From Apostichopus japonicus (lineage: Eukaryota > Echinodermata > Holothuroidea > Aspidochirotida > Stichopodidae): a stretch of DNA of 64,000 nt. The position numbers and the translations under genes were made by a program. The notes beneath the pieces were generated by a model. The model was given only the letters and a program-made list of their open reading frames with translations, did not search any database and was not told the DNA's origin. Shown here piece after piece: positions 335-63,400 of this stretch. The stretch is taken from the NCBI RefSeq assembly GCF_037975245.1, contig NC_092579.1:5891001-5955000 (forward strand), in the 5' to 3' direction. Position 1 is the first letter of the stretch; each line of letters opens with the position of its first letter.

Positions 335-35602
<35,268 letters not shown>

Positions 35603-36947
35603 GATTGCAGATATCCTTTTCGATGGTTGACCCAAAATTTGCGTAACAGGTATTTCCTTCTGATATACACTGAGTTCTCGCCGTTACCTAAGCCAAGAAC
35701 TGAGCAACATGTTTCCTTCCAAGATAATTAAACTCGAATCCTTTGTATGTCCGTTGGCCTGGTTTAATTTAAAAACATCCAAACTCTGAATTCTTCTGTA
35801 AGTGGTGTCAGAGGTAGTTTTGAGAAAACAAATCCAGTTTAATAATGATAATAAAAAAGAAGTATTATCCGCAAAATGATTATTGTAGTGAATTACTAAT
35901 TTACTTTCCCCTATACGTATATACCTAAGCTACAATTATAGTGTTACATGACTGTTTTCGTTGAACTGTGCGTGCGTGTGTGTGACGGGTATTCCTTGCA
36001 CGCATCGATAACTTTTTCTAATATCTCGCAAACAGAGACGGGCAAACAATCCCATGAAACCGTTTTTTGTTGACATTGTTCGAAAGCTTTTGATATTATA
36101 ATGAGCTGTGAGTAACTAATCAATACCAGAGAGGCGTTAAGTAATCTCATCAAGGTTCAGAAGTGTTCTTCTTTTTCTTTGCACTCTTGCCATCATTTTC
36201 GGTCGTAGGGGTTTTATAGTTCGTTATATTTACATTCGATCAGAAAGACATTAAGATTACACTTTTCATTGTAATTTACAGACGAATTGTTTGTTTTTCC
36301 GGGTCTTTGTTTTTTTTTTTTAAATAATCATTGCAGCTTTTTGAGATGAAATAGATTCTGGTATTTAACTATATACTGATTCAGCAATAAAGTTTTATCA
36401 AACTTGCAAATACTGCACTGATGCGAGCGAACCAGGTGGGGACCCGGTGGGGATCGACAATAATTGTGTCACCGGGCCCATGTTTCTTTAAATGTCCATT
36501 ATCCCCGCAGTACTGCGATTTTTAATAAATATATTATGAAAATGAGAATACATTATTCTTTATTCAAAATTTGCCCGGGTCATCTAATTGCCCGAGCCCC
36601 GGACTGTAATTTCGTCAAATGAATGTTAATATTCAGCGATCCTGACTTAAATCCATTTAATCACATGTAATAATCAACTTGAAAACTTTTGTTTTTAAAT
36701 TCCATTGATTTAAATAAACCTGTTAAAGCTCGTTTTATTTGTTATAGGTCTATACATAATACTGCTATTTTTTTTAGTTTTCACCAACACATGCAGAAAA
36801 TTTCGTTCCAGCAATCTTTTATATTTTTTAAACAGTGCACATTTGTAGTCACCAGAATATTCTATTAAAGCCAAAAACACAAACTATAATCATTACTATA
36901 AAGAGATAACTGTCAGGAACAAATTCCCCAAACAAGCTTAGCAAAAA

Positions 36948-37318
36948 CAGTGGCGTAGGAAGGTACTTTTGAGTGGGGGGCTGAAGACTGATGGCCGGCC
37001 TGGGGGAGGAGTCTAAGGGGAGGTGTGTCCCCCTCCCCTTTGGAATCTTTTGCATTTCCTGGTGGCCTCAGATGCAATTTGGTGCAATATAGCACACTTC
37101 AACACTCACTCCAATTTGTAAACTTAATTTGTATTTTCACCTGGCCTTAGATGCAATTTGGTGCTCCAAATGAGATTTTTTTCTCATTTGGAAATGAAAA
37201 AAGGGTTTTCTGACTTGCGAAGCGGGGCGGGGGGGGGGGGGGATTGATACTTCCGCCCCTCCACATTTTTCACTGGGGGGGTGCTGGCGCCCCCAGCCCC
37301 CCGGTTCCTACGCCCTTA
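36948..37318. mobile_element. hAT-like MITE family member, copy 2
   Basis: Starts CAGTGGCGTAGGAAGG and ends CCTACGCCCTTA. Flanks AGCAAAAA (36940-36947) and AGCAAAAC (37319-37326) match at 7 of 8. Same orientation as copy 1, 2 kb away, and keeps the 'aggtgtgtccccctcccc' segment missing from copy 1. Confidence 0.85.
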
Positions 37319-38543
37319 AGCAAAACTATTCGAAAGATTTCACATATTTAATGTTCTTCCACGCACTGGCAAGGCTTAAAATTCATTCAAGTTCAAATGT
37401 GATATTATCGAGCAACGTATGTTCATTTTAGTTTAAGGTTTTCTTTATTTGTATTAGAGATTGATTTTGCAAAACCTGGAACTTCTCGTATATATATATA
37501 TCATGAATTACGCATATACATATGCCAAAAAGACAAGTTATTTTGAAATTTCTTTTTAGGAAAAAATTAGTTTGAGGGAATGGTGGAGGGTAGCCTATAG
37601 GGGACCGTAAATATCCTATATCTCGGTTTCCAAACATGAGACGAAGATTTAAATTATAATTTTCATCAGCTGATATCATAATTGATTAAAATTACTTCAA
37701 ATGTGAACATATGTAATATAAGGAAACTTCAAGTCGATGTGGTCAAACGGGTGAGAAAAAAAAAACAGGATACGTGGTGGATAAACACGTTGCCATAGTG
37801 ACTCGCGACCTCAATCCACGGCTCGGTTTACGACGATGGTTTTGTTCCTTACTTGCAAATAGAAAACTTTGAATTCATTCCATTCAAAACAAGATCATTG
37901 AACCGAACCATACTTGAAAGGAGGTCACGAAATGTCTATATCTTGTTCCTTATTCCGAGATTTAGTTTCCTGACGACTATATCAATTTATGTCTATGTTA
38001 TATCTGTATATGTATAGGCTGTCTCGTATGCGGAAAAGATGTGATAGGATTCAGCGAAGCATGTCGCTTATTATAATATTGTGGCGTAAAACGTACAGTG
38101 AGTGTATTCCGCTATGTAGACCTTCTAGATTTGATTCAGGTCAGTGGAGGTGTTCATAGCAGTGCCCCAAAGTGTCAACAGCTTGCCATAGGTTGTAAAA
38201 AGTTTCCTTTCAGAAGAACTTATTTTTTCCCCGCCTCCAAAATATTCCGAGATTGACGAGGAGTGTTGGATTGTACACATTTTGAGAGCATGCTTTGTGA
38301 CGTATAGTTAAAAGATGATTTGGGCACAATTTTGGTCTTGATAGGCCTATATGCTATTATCTGAGCACGAAGACGAGCAAAATTGTGTTAGCAATGTGTC
38401 TATATAAAGCTGTTGAGGTTAAAAAGACACCTTTAAAATATGCATGCGAAAACTCTGAAATGCTCCTTTAAGGCTTCAGAGATGATGACGTCAGCTATAC
38501 TCAGCCTGCATGCCTATATTATACAAATTATGAATGGTTATGA

Positions 38544-38859
38544 GTGCAATAGTGCAAATATTTCATAAGTTGAAAGATGGAATGTTCCATTCAACGAGGC
38601 GCAGCCGAGTTGAATGGAACAAATTACATCTTTCAACGAATCTTATACATATTATATTAAGATGGGTAAAATGCACTCATGCAACAGATTGTTTTGAACA
38701 GATAGGTTTCTCTGCTCTCTTACCATTGAAAAAAAGTGCTACCAAAAAAGTAAAAGCCATGGTTCCGTATTTCATAGAGTTGAATAGAGCGTATTTTGCA
38801 TGCAATCAACGATCAATTGACCAATCAAATGACCAGAATACAATTATGTGTTGCATAAA
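38544..38859. repeat. Palindromic interspersed repeat, copy 1
   Basis: Shares about 300 bases with 57679-57988 in the same orientation. At its left is a nested palindrome: outer arms GTTGAAAGATG (38569-38579) and CATCTTTCAAC (38627-38637), inner arms GTTCCATTCAAC (38584-38595) and GTTGAATGGAAC (38609-38620), and the 13-base loop GAGGCGCAGCCGA. A 115-codon open frame across it is not conserved in copy 2. Confidence 0.85.
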
Positions 38860-41970: not shown

Positions 41971-44900
41971 GTATACATAATTCACCACTTCATTTGTTAA
42001 TTTTTCATTCTTGGAAAGAAGGATTTAAACTTATTCTAACCTATGCTATGACTTACTTAGGCTTAACTTAAGCTTAGTCACTTACCAGTGCCTACGAGTT
42101 AGGCTATAAGCCTAACCACAGATTTTGCTAATGGCCTAACATTTATGTCGATAATAGATCTAGTATGCAGAGTGTTAAACCTTAGCAGAATAAACCTATT
42201 CAGTCTTTTGTCACCCTAAATGATACTCTTGAACTTTGAAGGCCTGGCTCTATAATGGTGTCATACATCGAAAGTTAGGCTATGCCGAACGCTACGTCAA
42301 GGTTGCGATGTTAAGTAAGAAGCACCAATGTGAATATTGTTTTACGAAATAACGTTAATGATGATGTCTCATATTTTGTTCTGTGGTACACCATAGTTTT
42401 ATCTGGTGTACCGCTACTTTGTGGAATTGATGGATTGATTGGATTCCCCAGAATGAGTTGGCACAAGCCTAGCACACCAAAGCTTTTTCAAAGTGGTTCC
42501 AATTTGACTTCTAAACAGGTCTATGGCAACTGTAGTGTCAATAACTAAATACAATAACAAAGACTAGCAGGTAATACATGTGCTTCATTACAGAATACCC
42601 TGCAACTCTTGAATCTCACAGATGATTACAGGAAGTCCCTATACTAAACAATGTAGTGTGGATCTCATAAAGCCCCTGTGTGTGTGAGTTGTGGGATATT
42701 CTGCAATTGCTTCAAAACATGAGCATATATATGTCTATTGCCATATGTTTTGTTTTGTTCTATTATTAGCCTACAGAAGAGCTATGTCAGACTTGAATTT
42801 TGGCCTCTCTCTTATTCAATTTCGGTCATTTTAATGGATATAGCTGGGTTTTCATCAGACTCTTCAGTTGTAAGTTTTATATTTTTGTGAAATATCTGTG
42901 CATATGATTCACTTTCAAGCCTGACCCAGTCTCTAATTTAACTTATCAAGCTCAGTAACGACACTTTTCTACCCTCTTTTCCCATTTTTTTGTTCTTGCA
43001 GAAAGAGAGCGATCTCAATCATCTCATGATGGGCAGGTTCCACTGTGGCTAGTTTTTCAGAATGCAGCAACTAATGTTACTAAATTATACAAAGGTGAGA
43101 CATGATAGAGTTCTATGCATTGCTACAGTATTCTATAGATAAGTTGCTATTTTACCTGTACCCTATATTGTACTGATTTGTTATCCTGTAACTGTTTCGG
43201 ACAATGTATTGCGAGGGCAGACTTTGCTGATTTAATGGCAATCACATTCAATAAGTTGGCAAACAAAGTTGTTTGCCATTACTTTCCACTCAAAATGTAC
43301 ATCTTGCTGAGCACTGATAAGAAACTTAGCATGACCCAGAAAATTACTTACAGTAATTTGGCAAAACTTTTCTAGACCTTTCAAGAAACTTTTAATATAA
43401 AGTGAAGGAGGGGCTTACCTAAAAGTTGATCTTTGTAAAGTGAGATGAAACTATCTTTTTTGAGCACTACTCTAAGTTCCTATAATTAAAAATGAAAAAC
43501 ATAATTTAAGTTTTGGTGTTTAAATACTGTTAGGTCTATACTGTATATAAATTTACTGTTCTAGCAGGCTTGTACAATCGCAACGTAACCCTTTAATAGA
43601 TGTGATGCAGTCTATACGAATTGGCGTTCCTTTCAGCCATTCAGCATTTTAACACAAAGGCTTTTGTTAATCGAAACAGTTGGAGGGTTTCCTTGTAAGC
43701 TCAAGAATGGCTCAGAAGTTCAGAACACTTCAACAGCTTCAATATTTTTATTACTTCTGAAAGTCCATTTCCCCTGCAATCACTATGGGATACTTCAATT
43801 GAGATTTGCACAAATCTAAAATAGTTTGCATTTATTTGCACACATATCCTAAATAGCTGGATTTGTTTTCATGTCAGTGGCGAACTCGTTAATGATGCGT
43901 TACAACTTCCTTACTGTCTTTGTCATGTTTGGTCTCCATATTCTTTCATTGCCTGCATACTGTAGCAATACATTTGGTTGAAATACCACTCAAGTTTTCG
44001 ATGGGCTGGTAGAGGAAAAAGGAAACAGGATACTAATGTACAGTTCTTTGCTGCACAGCGTACCTACTACCTTTTTTTAAGTCTTGTGGCTTGGCTTAGA
44101 ACTTGGAGGTTTCTCGTTTAAATAAAAAAGTAAGACACTCCAAAGCTTAACAATAATATGTACAGTAAGCACTAAAAGGTAGTAGTTTCGGTATAGATCC
44201 TGTGAGTTGTCTGAATTCACAGCATTAGTGTTGAATACACAAGACGTGGCAACTTTGCAGTGTAAAAACATAGAAACTACACTTAATGGTATACTATTGG
44301 AATATCTGAACTTTATCCTAGTCTGAGTGTCGTTTTTCAATTATACTGTGAATAATTAAAAGAATAATGTTCCTTCCGCATTTTGTTTCCAGAACAGAGT
44401 AATATATACTGTACATAATTTTAAGTTTCTTAAGGAAGAAGCCTGAGAGTTACATGTTTTTTTTTAGTTTGCTAACATTCTTGGGGGGGGGGGGAGAAGT
44501 GGTGGGGGAGGGGAACCTTCAGAGGGATCAATTTCACTTTTGACAATGATTTTCATCAATATAGAAGGTCAGGCCTAGAATCTCAATTTTAGCAACTAAA
44601 AGCTAAAAATGCAAATGCTCAGAAAATCTACTAGCTGAATTTCAGGAACTCACTGTCATTCTCCAGTGTTACTAAGCACATCGGAAGTCACTGGCATTCT
44701 TCAGTGTTACTAAGCACATCGGAAGTCACTGGCATTCTCCAGTTTTACTAAGCACATCGGATGTCACTGGCATTCTCCAGTGTTACTAAGCACATCGGAA
44801 ATCACTGGCATTCTCCAGTGTTACTAAGCACATCGGAAATCACTGGCATTCTCCAGTGTTACTAAGCATATCGGAAGTCACTGGCATTCTCCAGTGTTAC

Positions 44901-47900
44901 TAAGCACATCGGAACTCACTGGCATTCTCCAGTGTTACTATTAGCATATCGGAAGTCACTGGCATTCACCAGTGTTTACTACTTAGGGGCACATCGGAAC
45001 TCACTAAACAGGCTTATAAGAGCAGCCCAATTATACTTGTTGATAATAAGCAGTCATGTACAGTAGGGCCTATGTAAGGTTTTGGAATGCATGCTGATAT
45101 TTTTAGTAATGATTGTTTCCAGACATGTAGTGATGTTCTTAATGTCTTCTGATTGCTAAAAGACATGTACAGTAGTGATGTTCTTAATGTCTTCTGATTG
45201 CTAACAGGCATGTAGTGATGTTCTTAATGTCTACTGATTGCTAAAAGGCATGTACAGTAGTGATGTTCTTAATGTCTTCTGATTGCTAACAGACATGTAG
45301 TGATGTTCTTAATGTCTTCTGATTGCTAAAAGACATGTACAGTAGTGATGTTCTTAATGTCTTCTGATTGCTAACAGACATGTAGTGATGTTCTTAATGT
45401 CTACTGATTGCTAACATATGTACAGTAGTGATGTTCTTAATGTCTACTGATTGCTAACAGACATGTAGTGATGTTCTTAATGTCTACTGATTTGTTAACA
45501 GACATGTACAGTAGTGATGTTCTTAATGTCTTCTGATTGCTAACAGACATGTAGTGATGTTCTTAATGTCTTCTGATTGCTAAAAGACATGTACAGTAGT
45601 GATGTTCTTAATGTCTTCTGATTGCTAACAGACATGTAGTGATGTTCTTAATGTCTACTGATTGCTAAAAGGCATGTACAGTAGTGATGTTCTTAATGTC
45701 TTCTGATGCTAACAGACATGTAGTGATGTTCTTAATGTCTACTGATTGCTAAAAGACATGTACAGTAGTGATGTTCTTAATGTCTTTTGATTGCTAACAG
45801 ACATGTAGTGATGTTCTGAATGTCTACTGATTGCTAAAAGGCATGTACAGTAGTGATGTTCTTAATGTCTTCTGATTGCTAACAGACATGTAGTGATGTT
45901 CTTAATGTCTACTGATTTGTTAACAGACATGTAGTGATGTTCTTAATGTCTACTGATTGCTAAAAGGCATGTACAGTAGTGATGTTCTTAATGTCTTCTG
46001 ATGCTAACAGACATGTAGTGATGTTCTTAATGTCTACTGATTGCTAAAAGACATGTACAGTAGTGATGTTCTTAATGTCTTCTGATTGCTAACAGACATG
46101 TAGTGATGTTCTGAATGTCTACTGATTGCTAAAAGGCATGTACAGTAGTGATGTTCTTAATGTCTTCTGATTGCTAACAGACATGTAGTGATGTTCTTAA
46201 TGTCTACTGATTTGTTAACAGACATGTAGTGATGTTCTTAATGTCTACTGATTGCTAAAAGACATGTACAGTAGTGACGTTCTTAATGTCTTCTGATTGC
46301 TAACAGACATGTAGTAATGTTCTTAATGTCTTCTGATTGCTAACAGACATGTAGTGATGTTCTTAATGTCTACTGATTGCTAAAAGACATGTACAGTAGT
46401 GATGTTCTTAATGTCTTCTGATTGCTAACAGACATGTAGTGATGTTCTTAATGTCTTCTGATTGCTAACAGATATGTACAGTAGTGATGTTCTTAATGTC
46501 TACTGATTGCTAACAGACATGTAGTGATGTTTAATGTCTACTGATTTGTTAACAGACATGTAGTGATGTTCTTAATGTCTTCTGATTGCTAATAGACATG
46601 TAGTGATGTTCTTAATGTCTACTGATTGCTAAAAGACATGTACAGTAGTGATGTTCTTAATGTCTTCTGATTGCTAACAGACATGTAGTGATGTTCTTAA
46701 TGTCTACTGATTGCTAAAAGGCATGTACAGTAGTGATGTTCTTAATGTCTTCTGATTGCTAACAGACATGTAGTGATGTTCTTAATGTCTACTGATTGCT
46801 AACAGACATGTGTGATGTTCTTAATGTCTTCTGATTGCTAACAGACATGTAGTGATGTTCTTAATGTCTACTGATTTGTTAACAGACATGTAGTGATGTT
46901 CTTAATGTCTACTGATTGCTAAAAGACATGTACAGTAGTGACGTTCTTAATGTCTTCTGATTGCTAACAGACATGTAGTGATGTTCTTAATGTCTTCTGA
47001 TTGCTAACAGACATGTAGTGATGTTCTTAATGTCTTCTGATTGCTAAAAGACATGTACAGTAGTGATGTTCTTAATGTCTTCTGATTGCTAACAGACATG
47101 TAGTGATGTTCTTAATGTCTTCTGATTGCTAAAAGACATGTACAGTAGTGATGTTCTTAATGTCTTCTGATTGCTAAAAGACATGTAGTGATGTTCTTAA
47201 TGTCTTCTGATTGCTAACAGATATGTACAGTAGTGCTGTTCTTAATGCCTACTGATTGCTAACAGTTATTAATGTAGTGTAGACAAGTGTGGTAGAGTAA
47301 TTAACATTTAATTTCCCATAAAACTGGAAAAGAAGTAAACGTTACGCCCTGTTTATCTTTGCTAGCTGTTGGTTTGATTTTCAAAGCAGTGACATTGACA
47401 TGAAGCACAATGTCACTGAAGGATCATGCAAGGTTTTCAGAATTGCCATTTTCATTTCATGGAATCTGTTTTGTTCATGCACAAAGAGAACCAATTTCTC
47501 TCTGGACTGACAGTCGTTTACCTTTGTTTTGGACAAACTTTTGCAGGAGATCTGCACGCAGTAACGTTGTATGAATGAGGAAGTAGTTTTCCAGTATACA
47601 AATACTGTTCTTTTCATAACACTGACAGTTTGTGTCTGGTGTGCATTTCGTGAACTGGTTTTGTCTTTCTCTGACATTCACTTCAAGTTTAATTTTTTTA
47701 AATTTATGATTCCCAATTTTAATTTTTTTAATTTTTATTGTGTTGTTATTATTAGAATATATTTATCATTAAAAAAATGTTAATTTATTATTTAGTTCAT
47801 TAATTTATAGTTATTATTTAATTTAATATTTATTTGAGTTTAATTTTCAATTTAACTCTGACATCCACTTTAATAACAAAAGTAATTATATAAATTTTAC

Positions 47901-50843
47901 AGATTGAGGAGATTTATTTAATACATGTTTGTATATTTAGCATGCCAGTACTAAACAGCCCTTAGGCAGCAAACTATAACAGCACAGTTTTAAAGTGCTA
48001 AGTTTTCAGGGGTTGTTTTTTCCATCTCATTTATCGTAGTTCTGCCTCATGTAATAGATAATACTCTGGGAAATACGGATATCGTTCTTATAAAGTAGCT
48101 AGATTTGTTAGACAATGGAACATCTTGTGTCATGCAATTGAGATGAGCTCAAAATAAGTCACTAGCTCAGTATGTTAGTAAGTACTACAGTACAGTAGAT
48201 GTGTCATAGCATTTCCATGCCATAGCATGTATGAAAAGCAGGCTGAAAATACCCCATATTTTCAAGAAGTGTCTCTAGTTGTTATTTTCATTTTATTGTA
48301 AAATTAGTTCTTTAGTATAATAAGTATATTATATACAATAGTGTTAGTACAGTATACAGTACTGTAGTAGTGTACCGTCTCTAGTTGTTATGGTCCCAGT
48401 TGATGAAGGGGGGTTGGCATAACTCACATTTGATTAGAAACAATGCAATCTTGCATCTGGGAGGTGTGAGGAGATGAAAACTATGAAACCTCCCTTTTAG
48501 GGACAATGATATGAAGACCAGTTCAAGGACCAGTCATAAAGGAATAATATTACTTGATAACTTCACCCCCCCCCCCCCCCTCCGCTCCTTCCTCTGTGGT
48601 TGGAATTAAGGTCAGGATAGTTTTCTTATCAAAGATACCACTGTCAAACTTCTTCTGTCTTTTAATAGCATAAGTATTGATGGACCTGTTTGGATTTTAT
48701 AGAACCCCTGCAAACGCCTTTGCCTTAAAGTACCCACCAAATTTTTTGCAGATCCCCTGAAGGTCCTCATACCCCAGGTGGAGAAAGTTGGAACTTTGTG
48801 CATACATGTTACGTTTAGGTAACCTCGTTGTTTCCCCCGATGGGTTTAAATATCCTTTGTAAAAAGCTCCCAATATTGTGACTTTAGCATCCAAATTTGT
48901 TACGACCGTAGTACCATTTCTGTGAGTGACACAGTGGTGTTCAAAATCTGTGAATAAATTCCATCTCTTCCGTTATCAACTTAAAAATAGACAGTTGCCT
49001 ACCACGGTACCACATAACTACTCTTTGGCTCTTATTCGAAAATCTCCTCTATTCTGATTGGTCACCAAATTTTTACAGATCCCCTGAAGGTCCTCAAACC
49101 CCAGGTGGAGAAAGATGGGACTTAGTGCATACATTTTACGTTTAGGTAACCTCGTTGTTTCCCCCAATGGGTTTAAATATCCTTTGTAAATAGCTCCCAA
49201 TATTGTGACTTTAGCATCCAAATTTGTTACGACTGTAGTACCATTTCGGTGAGTGACACTGTGGTGTTCAAACTCCGTGAATAAATTCCATTTCTTCCTT
49301 TATCAATTTAAAAATAGACAGTTGCCTACCACGTAACTACTCTTTGACTCTAACTCAAATCTCTCTATTCTGATTGGTTAGTCGGTTTTGCACTGTGCCA
49401 TGTGTTCCTCTTCGCTCTTGATGTTATGTACCAACACACGGTTTTACCTTTTGCTTCACAGATAGTATAGAATCTCACAGACGTAGTCTAGATCTGGGTA
49501 TTAAAATAGGCCAACAGAGGCGGACGAGAGACGTGGTAGCCTGGGCCAAGAAGAGGAGACGGTTTATTCATAAGGAGGACCTGCTAGCATTTCTCTGCGG
49601 TAACTCCCCGCCTTCAAGACCTCGAGGCGTCCAGCTGCCCAGAAGCTCATCGGATAGATCATCTCCTCGTTCGCATACGCCGTCCTCGCCTCCCAGAGAA
49701 CAGGACACTGGAGATGAACTGCAAACATTCAGAGATGCTCTAGCTTTGCACGGTCAGTTTTTCAGACTCTTTTTATTTTGAAAATTTCTTTTGTAAGTTA
49801 ATAATATCTGCCAATCTCTCATAATCCTATAAAACCTTCAAATCCTCTCTTTAGGTATAAGTGTGATGCAACATGGCAGAGAGTACTTTTGGTATTCACA
49901 CTTGGTGTAGCAATATGGAAGGCTCTGAATCCTTCCCCACCCCCCCCCCCCTCCCCCTCTATTAAATAAAATGGTTCCTTTGTACAAAATCTGCTATATG
50001 TCTGCACTTTTATAGCAATTTGCCCAGTTTGATCAGAATTTTGCTATGGGATTTCTGATGAATTATTTCTTGCATGGTACTGTAACATTTGGGTCGCTTT
50101 TGATGAAGAGTTGTTCTGTAGTGAAGCTGCTGATCCACAGCAATGACCGCTTAGCCTCAATGGACAAGAGTGTGATATTGATTCCAAGCAAGCTAAGAGT
50201 AAATTTCGTCATGCTCACAAAACTTATGGGGAAAGCTATAGACCCCTACTGTAGTTGGTATATCTATGCCTGTCTGTTTGTCTGTCTGACTGTCTGTCTG
50301 TGTTGGACTTTGTGCCTGATGTACTCTCAGTTAACAGCATGGGTACCAAAGCCCACTTCATTGAACACACAATGCTACCTTTTCTATAATTCCATGTTTT
50401 TGCACCACTCAGCCCCTTTCCTGTTTCCTTGAAGTTGAATCCCACTAGGATAACGACTTTTGTTTCAGGTGTCTCTGGATCTTTTTTGTGAAAAGTTGCA
50501 TTTGAGTATCCAAGGTGATTATCTGTAGAGTGACTATATGATTAAATTCACCATATCTGCTTGCCTGGGTTATGTGCTTACCTATTGTGTGGCTCTAGTA
50601 ACAAACCAAAATTTCACTTTGATTAAAATGTTTCTTTTTTTCTTCTTCTCTCCATGTATAGGACTGAATGGAGCCATGGCCAATGTAGGTGTTTCTCAAT
50701 CACCCCCACATTCTAGGAGGAGACACAGCAGTTCTCTACAAGACCTTGAGGACGTTCTTAGCAACTCGCAGGATGCCAGAAAGAGGAACACAATCGAAAC
50801 TCTTCCAGATTCACCATCTCCAAAGCGATCAAGATACTTATGA
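41781..50843 (+). CDS. HAPSTR1: HAPSTR1 (C16orf72/UPF0472) orthologue, complete, 4 exons
   Basis: Exons 41781-41970, 43002-43094, 49462-49752 and 50662-50843 join in phase 1 to give 251 residues (human about 275). Family hallmarks: two related segments LWYQFQNSASAVTALYK and LWLVFQNAATNVTKLYK, then the DLGIKIGQQRR...VAWAKKRRR helix, a DLLAFLCG motif, a Ser/Pro-rich stretch, a FRDALALHGLNGAMA motif, and a C-terminus SPSPKRSRYL. In mammals HAPSTR1 is a nuclear protein that works with the ubiquitin ligase HUWE1 in stress signalling. KKRRR and PKRSR are candidate nuclear localisation signals. The start at 41781 has G at -3; an in-frame ATG at 41724 would add 19 residues with no family support. The gene is divergently oriented to the EGF gene. 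Confidence 0.93.
41971..43001. other. HAPSTR1 intron 1
   Basis: 1.0 kb of AT-rich sequence without recognised elements. Confidence 0.6.
43002..43094 (+). CDS. HAPSTR1: HAPSTR1 exon 2
   Basis: 31 codons between TTGCAG and GTGAGA. Encodes the second, more strongly conserved repeat WLVFQNAATNVTKLYK. Both repeats end at the same LYK|phase-1 boundary, which suggests an ancient exon duplication inside this family. Confidence 0.92.
43095..44650. other. HAPSTR1 intron 2, left part
   Basis: AT-rich, no gene or element recognised. A G12 run lies near 44484. Confidence 0.5.
44651..45005. repeat. 38-bp minisatellite, nine copies
   Basis: Unit CACTGGCATTCTCCAGTG plus 'ttactaagcacatcggaagt'. Each unit contains a small hairpin, CACTGG/CCAGTG around CATTCT. 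The last two copies carry short insertions. In HAPSTR1 intron 2. Confidence 0.95.
45121..47265. repeat. Satellite of alternating 40-bp and 45-bp units
   Basis: About 50 units of 'gtagtgatgttcttaatgtc' followed by 'ttctgattgctaacagacat'. A longer form has five extra bases ('gtacagtagtgatg') and usually ends 'aaaag' in the preceding unit. Over much of the array the long and short forms alternate, giving an 85-bp higher-order period, with local runs of only short units. In HAPSTR1 intron 2, between exons 2 and 3. Confidence 0.97.
47266..48735. other. HAPSTR1 intron 2, middle part
   Basis: AT-rich, including a very AT-rich stretch 47685-47900. A C14 run lies near 48566. No gene found. Confidence 0.5.
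48738..49375. repeat. Direct duplication of about 310 bases
   Basis: 48738-49040 and 49065-49375 both read 'cccctgaaggtcctcatacc', 'taggtaacctcgttgtttcc', 'gtgactttagcatccaaatt' and so on, with about 7% differences by eye. The second copy ends 85 bases before HAPSTR1 exon 3. Confidence 0.92.
49462..49752 (+). CDS. HAPSTR1: HAPSTR1 exon 3
   Basis: 97 codons, TTCACAG acceptor and GTCAGT donor. Holds SLDLGIKIGQQRRTRD, the WAKKRRR basic cluster, LLAFLCG, a Ser/Pro/Arg-rich low-complexity run and FRDALALHG. Confidence 0.93.
49753..50661. other. HAPSTR1 intron 3
   Basis: 0.9 kb. A C12 run lies near 49940, and a (TGTC)n-like stretch ('ctgtctgtttgtctgtctga') at about 50271-50302. No other feature. 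Confidence 0.55.
50662..50843 (+). CDS. HAPSTR1: HAPSTR1 exon 4 with stop codon
   Basis: 60 codons including TGA at 50841. Begins LNGAMANVGVSQSPP, continues RRRHSSSLQDLEDVL and ends DSPSPKRSRYL, matching the conserved C-terminal Ser-Pro-x-x-Lys-Arg motif of the family. Acceptor is GTATAG. Confidence 0.93.
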
Positions 50844-55640: not shown

Positions 55641-57678
55641 TGATGGCTTATGTGGAATTGGGTGAGGATAAAGCTGAAATCCAACTGGCAGTTGATGATA
55701 TCAAACCCATTAATACCGATCAAGGAATTTGAAATGCATCAAAAGAAAGTACGCTACAGATGCTCATGGACCTGAAAATTGGTCTCTTTGAAGGAAGTGA
55801 TAGGGAGTAGCAGAATCCTACCATTTTGTTCAAAATGCATGAATGCTACCTCTTTTGTTTTAAGGATAATTGTACGAAGTAAGCTCAATCTTGCATTGTT
55901 GAGGCTGCTGGGGAGCGAGGGGGGGAGGACTTTGTGTGTAAAAAATTAAACTTGTCACTCCAGGTTATTTTTTGGACTGATAGGTAGAAGAAGAACTTTA
56001 CATGTTGATGGTTTCTGATTTATCAGTTTTGGTAAAAATATTAAACTTGAAAAATATTTATCCATTTTGTTGTTGTCGTAATTTTGTGTGCTGGTCTTAG
56101 GTATCATAGTAGTTGAGATGTGGTAGAGTAGAATATTTCAGCTAAGTTATCCTCTTATAGTATGTGGGACTTAGATGTGATTGGCTTTTTCTACTTGTTC
56201 TGTGTGAAATTTCATGGTTTGCTTTAATAGGTAACTGCTGGAGTATTCTGTTAGACCTCACCCACGTCCCTAATCCCATCTTACATTTTCCCATTCGCAG
56301 CCACCAAGTAGCATAAACAAAGTGTGGTTCCACATCGATAAATGATATTCTCCAGATGATATATCGGATAAAACCAGTTGGACTGATCATGGGTGGCTGT
56401 GTGAAGATTGGTTCTAAACTCTTTCTGCGATATTATTCTCTAAACCTTAGCAATTATTATTATTACTTTCTTGGGGGGGGGGGGGCAGTGGCCTAAGTGG
56501 GTTCCATAATATAGCACATGCCTTTCTCTACCCGAGTTAGCCAATGGCCTTGTCTAAGAACCAGACTTGTAGAATGAGGTCAACAGGATGAGTAATAATA
56601 ACCAGGCTGTTATTTTCACGATGCTTAAGCGTCCACTAATGTAGGAGAAGCCAACAATGGCTTACAACTACCACATCAGGTATGCATTCAACAAATTAAC
56701 TCAAATTTGGAATCTTTTCAATTTTTATAAAGTCATTTCAGATAGGATGAAAAGCCCATCTTGCTATGACAATGCAGGGGGTCGAACTCTGATTGCTAAG
56801 CCACCTTTACCCACTGGGCAACAGTACAGGTACATAAAATTCCATTTGGTATATAAGTAGGAGTAAAAGGCAAAAATATGATTTACTAACATACTGTTGC
56901 ACTGCTATCCATAATAGTCTTGTAGCGAGATTGTACTGTCACCCTGATGGATTTGTACTCTCAAGCTCTCACTCTAGTGCAAAGTTTAGTAGTCCTACTT
57001 GTACTTAGAGCATTGTACTGGTACTCATGCTGTTGTATTTATACAAGTCTGATCTTTACTAGGGTCTTGCACCCCCCACCCCCTCCCCACACACAACAAC
57101 ATTGCAACTTAAGATGTCACTCTGCCAGGCATATTTAGATTCTTAAGTAAATCTGTAATTAGCTCTTAATGCAAAGTTGTGCTCATAAATACACTTGATA
57201 TTTTGTGTGAGGTCGAAAAAATGGGGGCCTACACCCTTAGCAAAGGTTGAATTCTTCCCTGGCTGATGGAGGGGGTCGGGATCCCTGAGCCCACCCAGCC
57301 CCACCCTTTATAACCACCACTGGTAATATATGCTCAAGAGTACAAATTCTTGAGGGCGAGATCAAGCACAGAACAAGTATGCTAGAATACAATTACAGAC
57401 TTAACTATAAGTATGTTAAGAACACACCTTGATGGAATGGAAACTTCTGTTTTAACAGTCAAAAACCTTCAAAGACTCAACAACTCATTTATGATTTAGA
57501 ATCTCTTTATTGATTTCAATACATATTTAATATCGATATAAATGAATCATGAACACTTGAAGTATTAATAGTCCTGATTTCATATAAATGATCAGCTGCT
57601 GTATACATAGCTCCTAAATGTTAAAGATGATAGACATATTACATTAGTTATTATACAAATAATGAATGGATTCCATTC
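55641..57678. other. Intergenic, with a SINE-like fragment
   Basis: 56757-56823 on the minus strand reads like a tRNA-derived head: 'gcccagtgggtaaaggtggc' followed by a box B-like AGTTCGACCCC. No full SINE body was followed. 57210-57330 has GC-rich debris ending 'accaccactggtaat' like other repeats here. An AATAAA on the minus strand lies at 57511-57506. Confidence 0.35.
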
Positions 57679-57988
57679 GTGCAATAGTGCAAATATTTCA
57701 TGAGTTGAAAGATGGAATGTTCCATTCAACTCGGCTGCGCCTCGTTGAATGGAACAAATTACGACACAACACCTTCAAATTTGGATATAATTGGATGTAA
57801 AATTCCCTCATGCAACAGTTTGTTTTGAACAGACAGGTTTCTCTGCTCTCTTACCATTGAAAAAAAGTGCTATCAAAAAAGTATAACCCATGGTTCTATT
57901 TCATAGAGTGCAATAGAGCGGATTTTGCATGCAATCAACGAGCAATTGACCAATCAAATGACCAGAATACAATTAGGTGTTGTATAAA
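57679..57988. repeat. Palindromic interspersed repeat, copy 2 (loop inverted)
   Basis: Inner arms GTTCCATTCAAC (57719-57730) and GTTGAATGGAAC (57744-57755) are identical to copy 1, but the 13-base loop reads TCGGCTGCGCCTC, the exact reverse complement of the loop at 38596-38608. The right outer arm present in copy 1 is replaced by unrelated sequence. The rest matches copy 1 in the same direction. Confidence 0.88.
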
Positions 57989-60409: not shown

Positions 60410-63400
60410 CTGAGGAAAAGAAAACCAAAGAATAAACAATAGAATAGAAAGGCTTTACCCAGTAAATAAATGCATAAATTAATCGGAAGTCCAAATTAAT
60501 AGACAATAGGCAAATTTGTTGGATTTACTCTCAGAATCAATTTAAATGAATCAACAACTGAAACATGTAAAGTTCTCCTGGATGAGGAATTAGAGCCATC
60601 TTATTCCCAGGACTCCAGGAGTATTAAGCAGAAACCTATAGCAGGAATAGCCCTCTACATCATGAGCTATAACTGCCATGTAGCTTAATCAAATTACAAT
60701 GATCACAGAATGTTCTAATATAAGGAAATCTTTGAATATGTATATTAAGCACACTCCATGAATAACCAAACTACACCAAAGGCACCTGCCTCCATCTCCC
60801 AAACCATCCCCACCCCCACATCTAGGTCCTCCATAACTAACAAATGTTTCAAGTTGACATTACTATCATGTAATCATGTCACTGCTTCCCTAACTTTCTC
60901 ATAAAAAACTGAGAATTTGTCCTATTTTTTAATATCATGATTATTTTGGTATCTTGAAAGGCTAATAAGCTCCTCCGTTCACCCGCCAGAGAACGATCAG
61001 ATTGCTTAATTCCGCAAACTTTGTTTACTTCCATTCACAGAGTGAAAGATGGTAAGATATTTTCTTTGTTTGAGATCTTCCAGCTGTTAACTATATGAAA
61101 GTCCATTGCTTTATATACTGCTGACAACTCACTAAAGACTATTTTTGTAGCTGTGGGCCATATTCACCAGGCGTGATTGCGCATATGGCAAGCCATATGT
61201 GCAATAATTCGATAAACCGAGTTTATCGCCGTTAAACTCTGTTTTTAGATTGATAAACTCAGTTTATCGAATGGAAAAACGTGTTTTTCGCGATTATCTC
61301 AGTTTATCAAGCGAAAAGCAGGGTTATCTTGATAAACTAAGATTATCGGCGATAAACCGAGTTTATCAAATGGGAACTATGTTTTTAGCTCGATAAACTA
61401 AGTTTATTGATAATCTCTGTTTATTCTCTGTTTATCGATAAACTTAGTTTATCGCTCGATAAACCAAGTTTATCGAATTGGATATGGCACGCCACATGTA
61501 CAATGATTCGATAAACCGTTAACACTGCTTTTTGCTCGATAAACTGAGTTTATTATGAAAAACATGGTTATCCAGTCGATAACTCCGTTTTATCGATCGA
61601 AAAACAGAGTTTAACGACGATCAACTCCGTTTATTGAATTTTTGCACATGTGGCTTGCCACATACGCAGCAGAGTTGGAAATTGAATCGGTGAACAGATC
61701 GCACTGGACCGAACACAAAAAATTAATGGTTGGTTAAATGATCAGTGTATGAGTAGACTGTAAAAATTGTCAGCAAAATCTCTAAAACAGAAAATTGAAA
61801 TAGGAGGGGGTTTGTATGATGGTCCCTATTATTCCCTATCATCTGAAATTCAATTAGCCTAAATTGAGTTCACTTCTGGCTGGCAGGGTAGGAGAGGGGA
61901 AGAGGGCATATATGCCTCTAAAACTATCAAAGTTTCGAACATGTCACTATTAGAAGACAATTTCTCCATCAAAGCGGAATTTTCATTTGCATTTTAGACA
62001 GAACAAAACAATTCCGCTTCACCAGTTATAGGGAACCAAATGGTTACAACCACATAGATCTCTTCGTTAGACTGAGGGAGGGGAGGGAGGTGGGGGAAGT
62101 AATTATCGGTAAATCATACATGTATGATTTGATTAGAATGAATTAATATACATAAACAATACCTTTAAAGGTTGATTCAATGCCAAGGATGTAGTAGGGT
62201 GGCAGAGACAGGAGGAGACATGGCTAGGGAAGAGGAAAGGGCTGGGTGGAGGAATTCTCAGTCTCACAATTTGTGGCACAAAAGACAGGTCAATTGTTGG
62301 AAAAAAGAGTTTTTATGTGAAAATACTGCTAATGACATTTCACTGATATAATTGTTTTTCCACTGGTGCTTCTTGAAGCTGTTCGAAGCACTGGTGACCA
62401 TAATTTCACCATGTCTCTCTTTCAAATTCGAAACCATTTTTTCTGGTTTCATCAAAACTTACCAGGAGGTTGAGGGGTGTAAGCTGGGGGTGGTGGATAC
62501 TGGCTGGGAGGTGGCTGTGGGTATGCGCCAGCAGGAGGTGGTGGAGCCACTCCAGTCGGGTACGATGAGGGTGGTGGCGCAACTGTGGTCTGTAGAAGAC
62601 AGGGGAAAAAGAGGAGGTCATTGAATCGTTTGTATGAAATTGGAAACTCTTGGACTAGGCTTTTATGGATACCCACCCTCACCATTAAATTAAGCTAACA
62701 GACACTTGGACACACACAGAGAGCATCATTGTAAATGTAACTATAATATTGTGGACAGGATCAGGAATCTTATTCTCAACACTGCTGCCAAATTTTTTAC
62801 ACGTCATTCAGTATATAATCTGCCTACAATGTAGACCACAACAAAATGCATCGTAACTTTTGGGATTACATTCCTGAGTAACAATGGCACAGTTTGCTAC
62901 TTGTGAGTAATCATTAGGAACTAACTACGTTGAAGAGAGTCAGAGTAACAAGAATGGCTGACAGATCTGTATAATCTACTGTAGTAAATTACAATTAAGT
63001 GAGGTTAAGTACAAAGCACTTAGGGATTGATACTAGTGATAGTCAATCCATGATATAGTACATTAGTGCAGTTACATAATTGCATACATATCATATCAAA
63101 ATGTTATTTATAGGAACAATGCACAAAACTGCCACGAAGAAAAAAAAATCCTGGACTGGTTGTTAACAATTGTTAAAGGAATTTATTTCAGCGAACTGAT
63201 GCTTCAACCCCCAACCGTTCGTTGTTCATAGTTCTAAGCTTGATTACTGGACAGTCTGAATTCTGATCTTCTCGTCAAAGGCTGTACCTATAATGGTCAT
63301 TTCAATTATAAATTTGTTTCTGAAATGGTTGAAAGAGCTCCCAAAGTTCTCAGAAGATTTTGATACGTTTTACACGTTGAGAGACTTATTGAAGACGGCA

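Follow-up and report, generated by a model that had tools for sequence, protein, structure and literature searches.

Template switching is documented to invert the spacer between two perfect inverted arms (PMC8604942). In yeast genes, 10 such spacer inversions are described; they occurred only where the arms were longer than 9 bp, and in 9 of the 10 cases the arms were already perfect. The inversions recurred in four genes, up to five times, and in two genes both forms were reached by flips (PMC8604942). In rRNA, 69 patterns with inversion of the loop only are reported, which is above the number in simulation, and most of these loops are 4 nt long and partly self-complementary. The same report includes one inverted microRNA loop and gives no enrichment for loop inversion combined with a compensatory change in the stem (PMC8794818).

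Related events are described in other genomes. Between human and chimpanzee there are 59 microinversions of 17–33 nt, all with flanking inverted repeats of 3–75 nt; their authors favour break-induced replication for many cases and allow template switching where the arms are long and perfect (PMC8755829). In the chloroplast DNA of plants, individual species have loops of 25–27 bp in either orientation, and the arms around them are 18 bp or longer (PMC2903610). Short-range template switches have been surveyed in the great apes (PMC7954356). Such arms need not be the cause in every case: the hotspots of microinversion in birds are reported to have no association with stem-loops (PMC3123225). Among the matching papers listed, which were not all that matched, none names a loop flip within a MITE or another transposon in its title or in the opening of its abstract, which does not imply that such flips are absent from print.

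The hairpin that we describe here resembles the yeast, rRNA and microRNA cases, as these are presented in PMC8604942 and PMC8794818: perfect arms of more than 9 bp are unchanged, the spacer is reverse-complemented, and the flanks are collinear. It differs from them in that the spacer has 13 nt (instead of 2–5 nt in yeast, or typically 4 and sometimes 7–8 nt in rRNA) and in that the two forms are found in two copies of a repeat within one animal genome. It shares with the chloroplast hairpins, such as that of trnH-psbA, the presence of both loop directions between palindromic arms that are kept, but those are polymorphisms within species, in organelle DNA, with the longer loops and arms given above (PMC2903610), whereas we compare two nuclear repeat copies. 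As in the human–chimpanzee comparison, the inversion is exact, has flanking inverted repeats and lies in an animal genome; the human–chimpanzee cases are at orthologous loci and span 17 nt or more, while ours is between paralogous copies and spans 13 nt (PMC8755829).

Two hairpins with opposite loops

The window (the whole 64-kb stretch of DNA that we analysed) contains two hairpins whose arms are identical and whose loops are opposite. In copy 1, the left arm (TGTTCCATTCAAC) is at 38583–38595, the loop (GAGGCGCAGCCGA) is at 38596–38608, and the right arm is at 38609–38621. In copy 2, the left arm is at 57718–57730, the loop (TCGGCTGCGCCTC) is at 57731–57743, and the right arm is at 57744–57756. 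All of these are given on the plus strand. The left arms were evaluated by pattern counts, shuffles and comparison with Markov sequences; the right arms were located by pattern counts and direct reading, and the loop of copy 1 by direct reading. The two 13-nt loops are perfect reverse complements (13 of 13 bases). The first-pass annotation of this DNA had placed the hairpins at 38584–38620 and 57719–57755 and had claimed identical arms, reverse-complementary loops and repeats in the same direction, all of which hold to the base. Its positions are correct as well, except that the perfect arms have 13 bp in both copies, one base longer than it gave; arms and loop together span 39 bp.

The arm–loop–arm pattern occurs twice in the 64 kb and in none of 100 dinucleotide shuffles. 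In five first-order Markov random sequences of the window's length, the longest perfect arm was 11 bp (with spacers of 3–40). Allowing up to 3 mismatches, the core CGAGGCGMAGCCGAG matches only the two hairpins within the window; at least two matches arose in 3 of 100 shuffles, so this search is weak by itself. Exact matches to a single arm are the four arms themselves, and with up to 2 mismatches there are 9 matches, compared to 8.2 expected, which is the chance level.

Both hairpins have strong folding potential as single-stranded DNA: −26.9 kcal/mol for copy 1 (z = −11.1) and −15.9 kcal/mol for copy 2 (z = −4.9). Within the loop there is an inner GGC/GCC stem, which is kept in both orientations. 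Because of this inner stem, an inversion leaves 6 of the 13 loop positions unchanged, and the other 7 reveal the flip. Copy 1 also has a pair of outer arms, identified by folding and direct reading: GTTGAAAGATG at 38569–38579 pairs with CATCTTTCAAC at 38627–38637 (both on the plus strand). Copy 2 retains the left outer arm and is missing the right one. The outer pair in copy 1, with one member gone from copy 2, suggests that the ancestral repeat probably held a longer palindrome.

The repeat that carries the hairpins

Each hairpin lies within a copy of a repeat of about 340 bp. Copy 1 (38517–38859, plus strand, 343 bp) is 86% identical to copy 2 (57649–57988, plus strand, 340 bp) over an alignment of 349 columns in the same direction, and the extent of copy 2 was taken from this alignment and from a profile of the two copies. 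The profile gave no third copy in the window; setting aside both copies and the hairpins' matches to themselves on the opposite strand, the best other match had E = 2.3.

Both copies have the short terminal inverted repeat TTATACAA at their left ends (38519–38526 and 57651–57658, plus strand). Its partner in copy 1 is TTGCATAA at 38851–38858, where 7 of 8 positions pair, and its partner in copy 2 is TTGTATAA at 57980–57987, where all 8 pair. Among 20,000 random segments of the window of similar length, 41 have such a pair of 8 bp no more than a few bases from their ends. Beyond these terminal repeats, copy 1 is flanked by ATA and ATA, and copy 2 by TTA and AGC. For both copies, a duplicated TA target is possible, which would be indistinguishable from the terminal repeat.

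MITEs are non-autonomous DNA transposons. The repeat resembles them in being short, in having short terminal inverted repeats and in having no recognised coding frame: a 115-amino-acid frame that runs across copy 1 had no Pfam match at E = 0.001. The repeat had no Rfam match at the gathering threshold either. The sequence suggests a MITE-like element that was probably mobile, a likeness that comes from the terminal repeats and the size, with two copies seen in the window.

We also searched collections in which an animal repeat is not expected, so that the lack of matches there carries little weight. The IMG/VR viral contigs contained neither the 29-mer and 25-mer with the loop of copy 1 nor 9-bp arms around any 13-base loop; prokaryotic genome contigs had no instance of 11-bp arms around any 13-base loop; and phage records had no match to copy 1. 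The core and arm strings were not found as text in the literature, which is a weak result, as such strings are seldom printed as text.

The two copies are homologous and collinear on both sides of the hairpin, in one same-strand alignment that extends from terminal repeat to terminal repeat. On the left-hand side of the loop, 51 of 52 columns from column 31 onwards are identical. The 60 columns closest to the loop contain a 3-base gap, and 53 of them are identical. In the right-hand block, which starts at column 155, 177 of 190 ungapped columns are identical. The columns just to the right of the hairpin (about 115–154) are far more diverged than the remainder. The hairpin's surroundings have about 1 mismatch in 71 bases, compared to 13 in 190 for the right-hand block (Fisher p = 0.12; the calculation used 1 in 72, and the blocks were picked after looking).

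How the loop may have come to be inverted

A single inversion is the simplest account of all seven differences between the loops. If the loops are aligned straight, 7 of 13 positions differ, and all 7 are transversions. The alignment outside the loop has 40 differences in 324 ungapped columns (11 transitions and 29 transversions). Independent point substitutions might have produced the reverse complement by coincidence, and the six positions that read the same in either direction, thanks to the inner stem, do match in the straight alignment too. But under the repeat's own divergence, the probability of at least 7 changes in 13 positions, each to the single matching base, is about 1.7e-7 (the binomial tail times (1/3)^7; a post hoc figure that treats sites as independent), and the arms are identical. 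We therefore rejected this explanation, whose probability is negligible. It is slightly easier to imagine an error of sequencing or assembly that reversed one hairpin, as strong hairpins can trouble both sequencing and polishing. Such an error would need to reverse exactly the 13 bases of the loop, in one of two copies that are 14% different and 19 kb apart and hence readily told apart, so we consider an artefact to be very improbable. The loop flip is a real, clean and ordinary case of a known type of mutation.

Two other explanations accept the flip and differ in its cause. The hairpin could be the relic of a longer, near-perfect palindrome, made up of outer and inner arms, in which only the loop would show an orientation. 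The loop would then be set both ways by insertion in either direction, or by gene conversion or recombination with relatives that pair either way. The outer arms GTTGAAAGATG and CATCTTTCAAC flank the inner arms in copy 1, which makes a longer palindrome likely, and the strong divergence to the right of the hairpin, along with the slightly greater similarity of its surroundings, would allow for an exchange with a longer palindromic relative by recombination or gene conversion. On the other hand, the difference in identity between the blocks is not significant, and no longer palindromic relative was seen. Also, the similarity in the same direction continues across the loop, from terminal repeat to terminal repeat, which means that two independent insertions would need to have struck the same base. 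Overall, we view a palindrome relic as unlikely, although it is the alternative that we take most seriously. The first-pass annotation had also suggested that the loop might be an invertible micro-switch or a trace of cruciform processing, and such a switch could be operated by a site-specific recombinase. Only the geometry is suitable, with a segment between inverted arms that is present in both directions. Yet the authors of the human–chimpanzee study argue that a recombinase could not pair segments shorter than 33 bp, which do not have the length to form a loop (PMC8755829), and this one has 39 bp including its arms. The open reading frames that we scanned (6 of the 23 listed, which makes for weak evidence) contained no recombinase domain, and the 115-amino-acid frame across copy 1 had no Pfam match. 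With two copies at two loci there is no sign of repeated flipping, and we rejected the switch as highly improbable.

The reading that we prefer is that a template switch between the perfect arms, or copying in the course of break repair, flipped the loop, starting from one ancestral hairpin (probability roughly 0.8). That some copying or repair event was responsible is very likely. Both hairpins would derive from a single one that an ancestral copy of the short MITE-like repeat carried. Among the later copies, one lineage would have arisen when DNA synthesis reached the hairpin and switched between the perfect 13-bp arms, by an inter-strand template switch or by microhomology-mediated break repair inside the loop. 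The loop would have been copied off the other strand, and synthesis would then have jumped back, leaving the arms and flanks unaltered and the loop exactly reverse-complemented. A single event of this kind, without any function, would be enough.

Several observations bear on this template-switch or break-repair reading. In its favour, the hairpin is well suited to template switching: its perfect arms are longer than 10 bp, and it folds strongly as single-stranded DNA. Against it, the spacer of 13 nt exceeds those of the yeast cases, one clean flip does not explain the diverged stretch at columns 115–154, and another pair of repeats has an inverted repeat whose 11-bp arms enclose an unflipped loop. 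Also, only two copies were seen, and the event is deduced from paralogs instead of from a dated lineage; two copies are compatible with either direction of change, with one or several flips, and with flipping that continues. Template switching and break-induced replication, which the human–chimpanzee authors favour for many of their cases (PMC8755829), would both account for the flip. The original proposal of a loop flip between inverted arms remains the best reading, given the exact reverse complement and the unchanged arms. Of the three routes it offered (recombination, template switching or a recombinase), template switching fits best, and the recombinase is without support.

Might the loop flip repeatedly?

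We speculate, with more doubt than conviction, that the hairpin is a hot spot at which the loop flips repeatedly within a dispersed family of palindromic repeats. If so, then the direction of the loop should be scrambled relative to the phylogeny of the copies, and it might be polymorphic at single loci. In that event, the repeat would report on template switching in the nuclear genome of an animal, naturally and in many copies. Should the family prove large, it could act as a replicate experiment on the frequency of spacer flips in an animal germ line, in which arm length and loop sequence are constant.

Other inverted repeats in the window

To put the flip in context, we compared inverted repeats (arms of at least 6 and a spacer of 3–30) across nine pairs of repeats within the window, and we found nine that are kept in both copies, in five of the nine pairs. 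One of these nine is flipped, and no other has arms as long (13 bp); 1/9 is a rough figure, as some of the nine overlap. The comparison covered ungapped inverted repeats in matches of at least 80 columns and at least 75% identity, and it excluded self-overlapping matches and any repeat whose start falls in the tandem arrays (44600–47300).

The direct repeats at 34876–35229 and 36947–37317 are 84% identical and share a hairpin whose T6 loop sits between 11-bp arms, the next longest of the nine, and is unflipped. Two segments of 149 nt, at 61178–61326 and 61520–61668, are 81% complementary in inverted orientation, with 193 nt between them. Further perfect inverted repeats with arms similar to GATAAACT are found between and near these two segments.

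Sequence context

The window is AT-rich (37.8% G+C), with a CpG observed/expected ratio of 0.56. The minus strand of 3328–26652 contains EGF-like exons and CUB domains (among six frames scanned, two matched EGF and two matched CUB), and repeat comparison indicates many more EGF-like repeats. This region probably encodes one or more large EGF/CUB proteins. We take the base composition and these exons as signs of animal DNA. On the plus strand, the open frame at 49422–49781 matches the Pfam family TAPR1-like (E = 3.3e-27). The sole Rfam match in the window is to tRNA at 21736–21799 on the plus strand (35.3 bits, with a gathering score of 29), and it could mark a tRNA gene or else a repeat of tRNA origin. 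Finally, there are two neighbouring tandem arrays: the first, at 44645–44981, has 8.8 copies of a 38-bp unit, and the second, at 45120–47265 (2.1 kb), has a 40/85-bp unit, with 25.5 copies of 85 bp.
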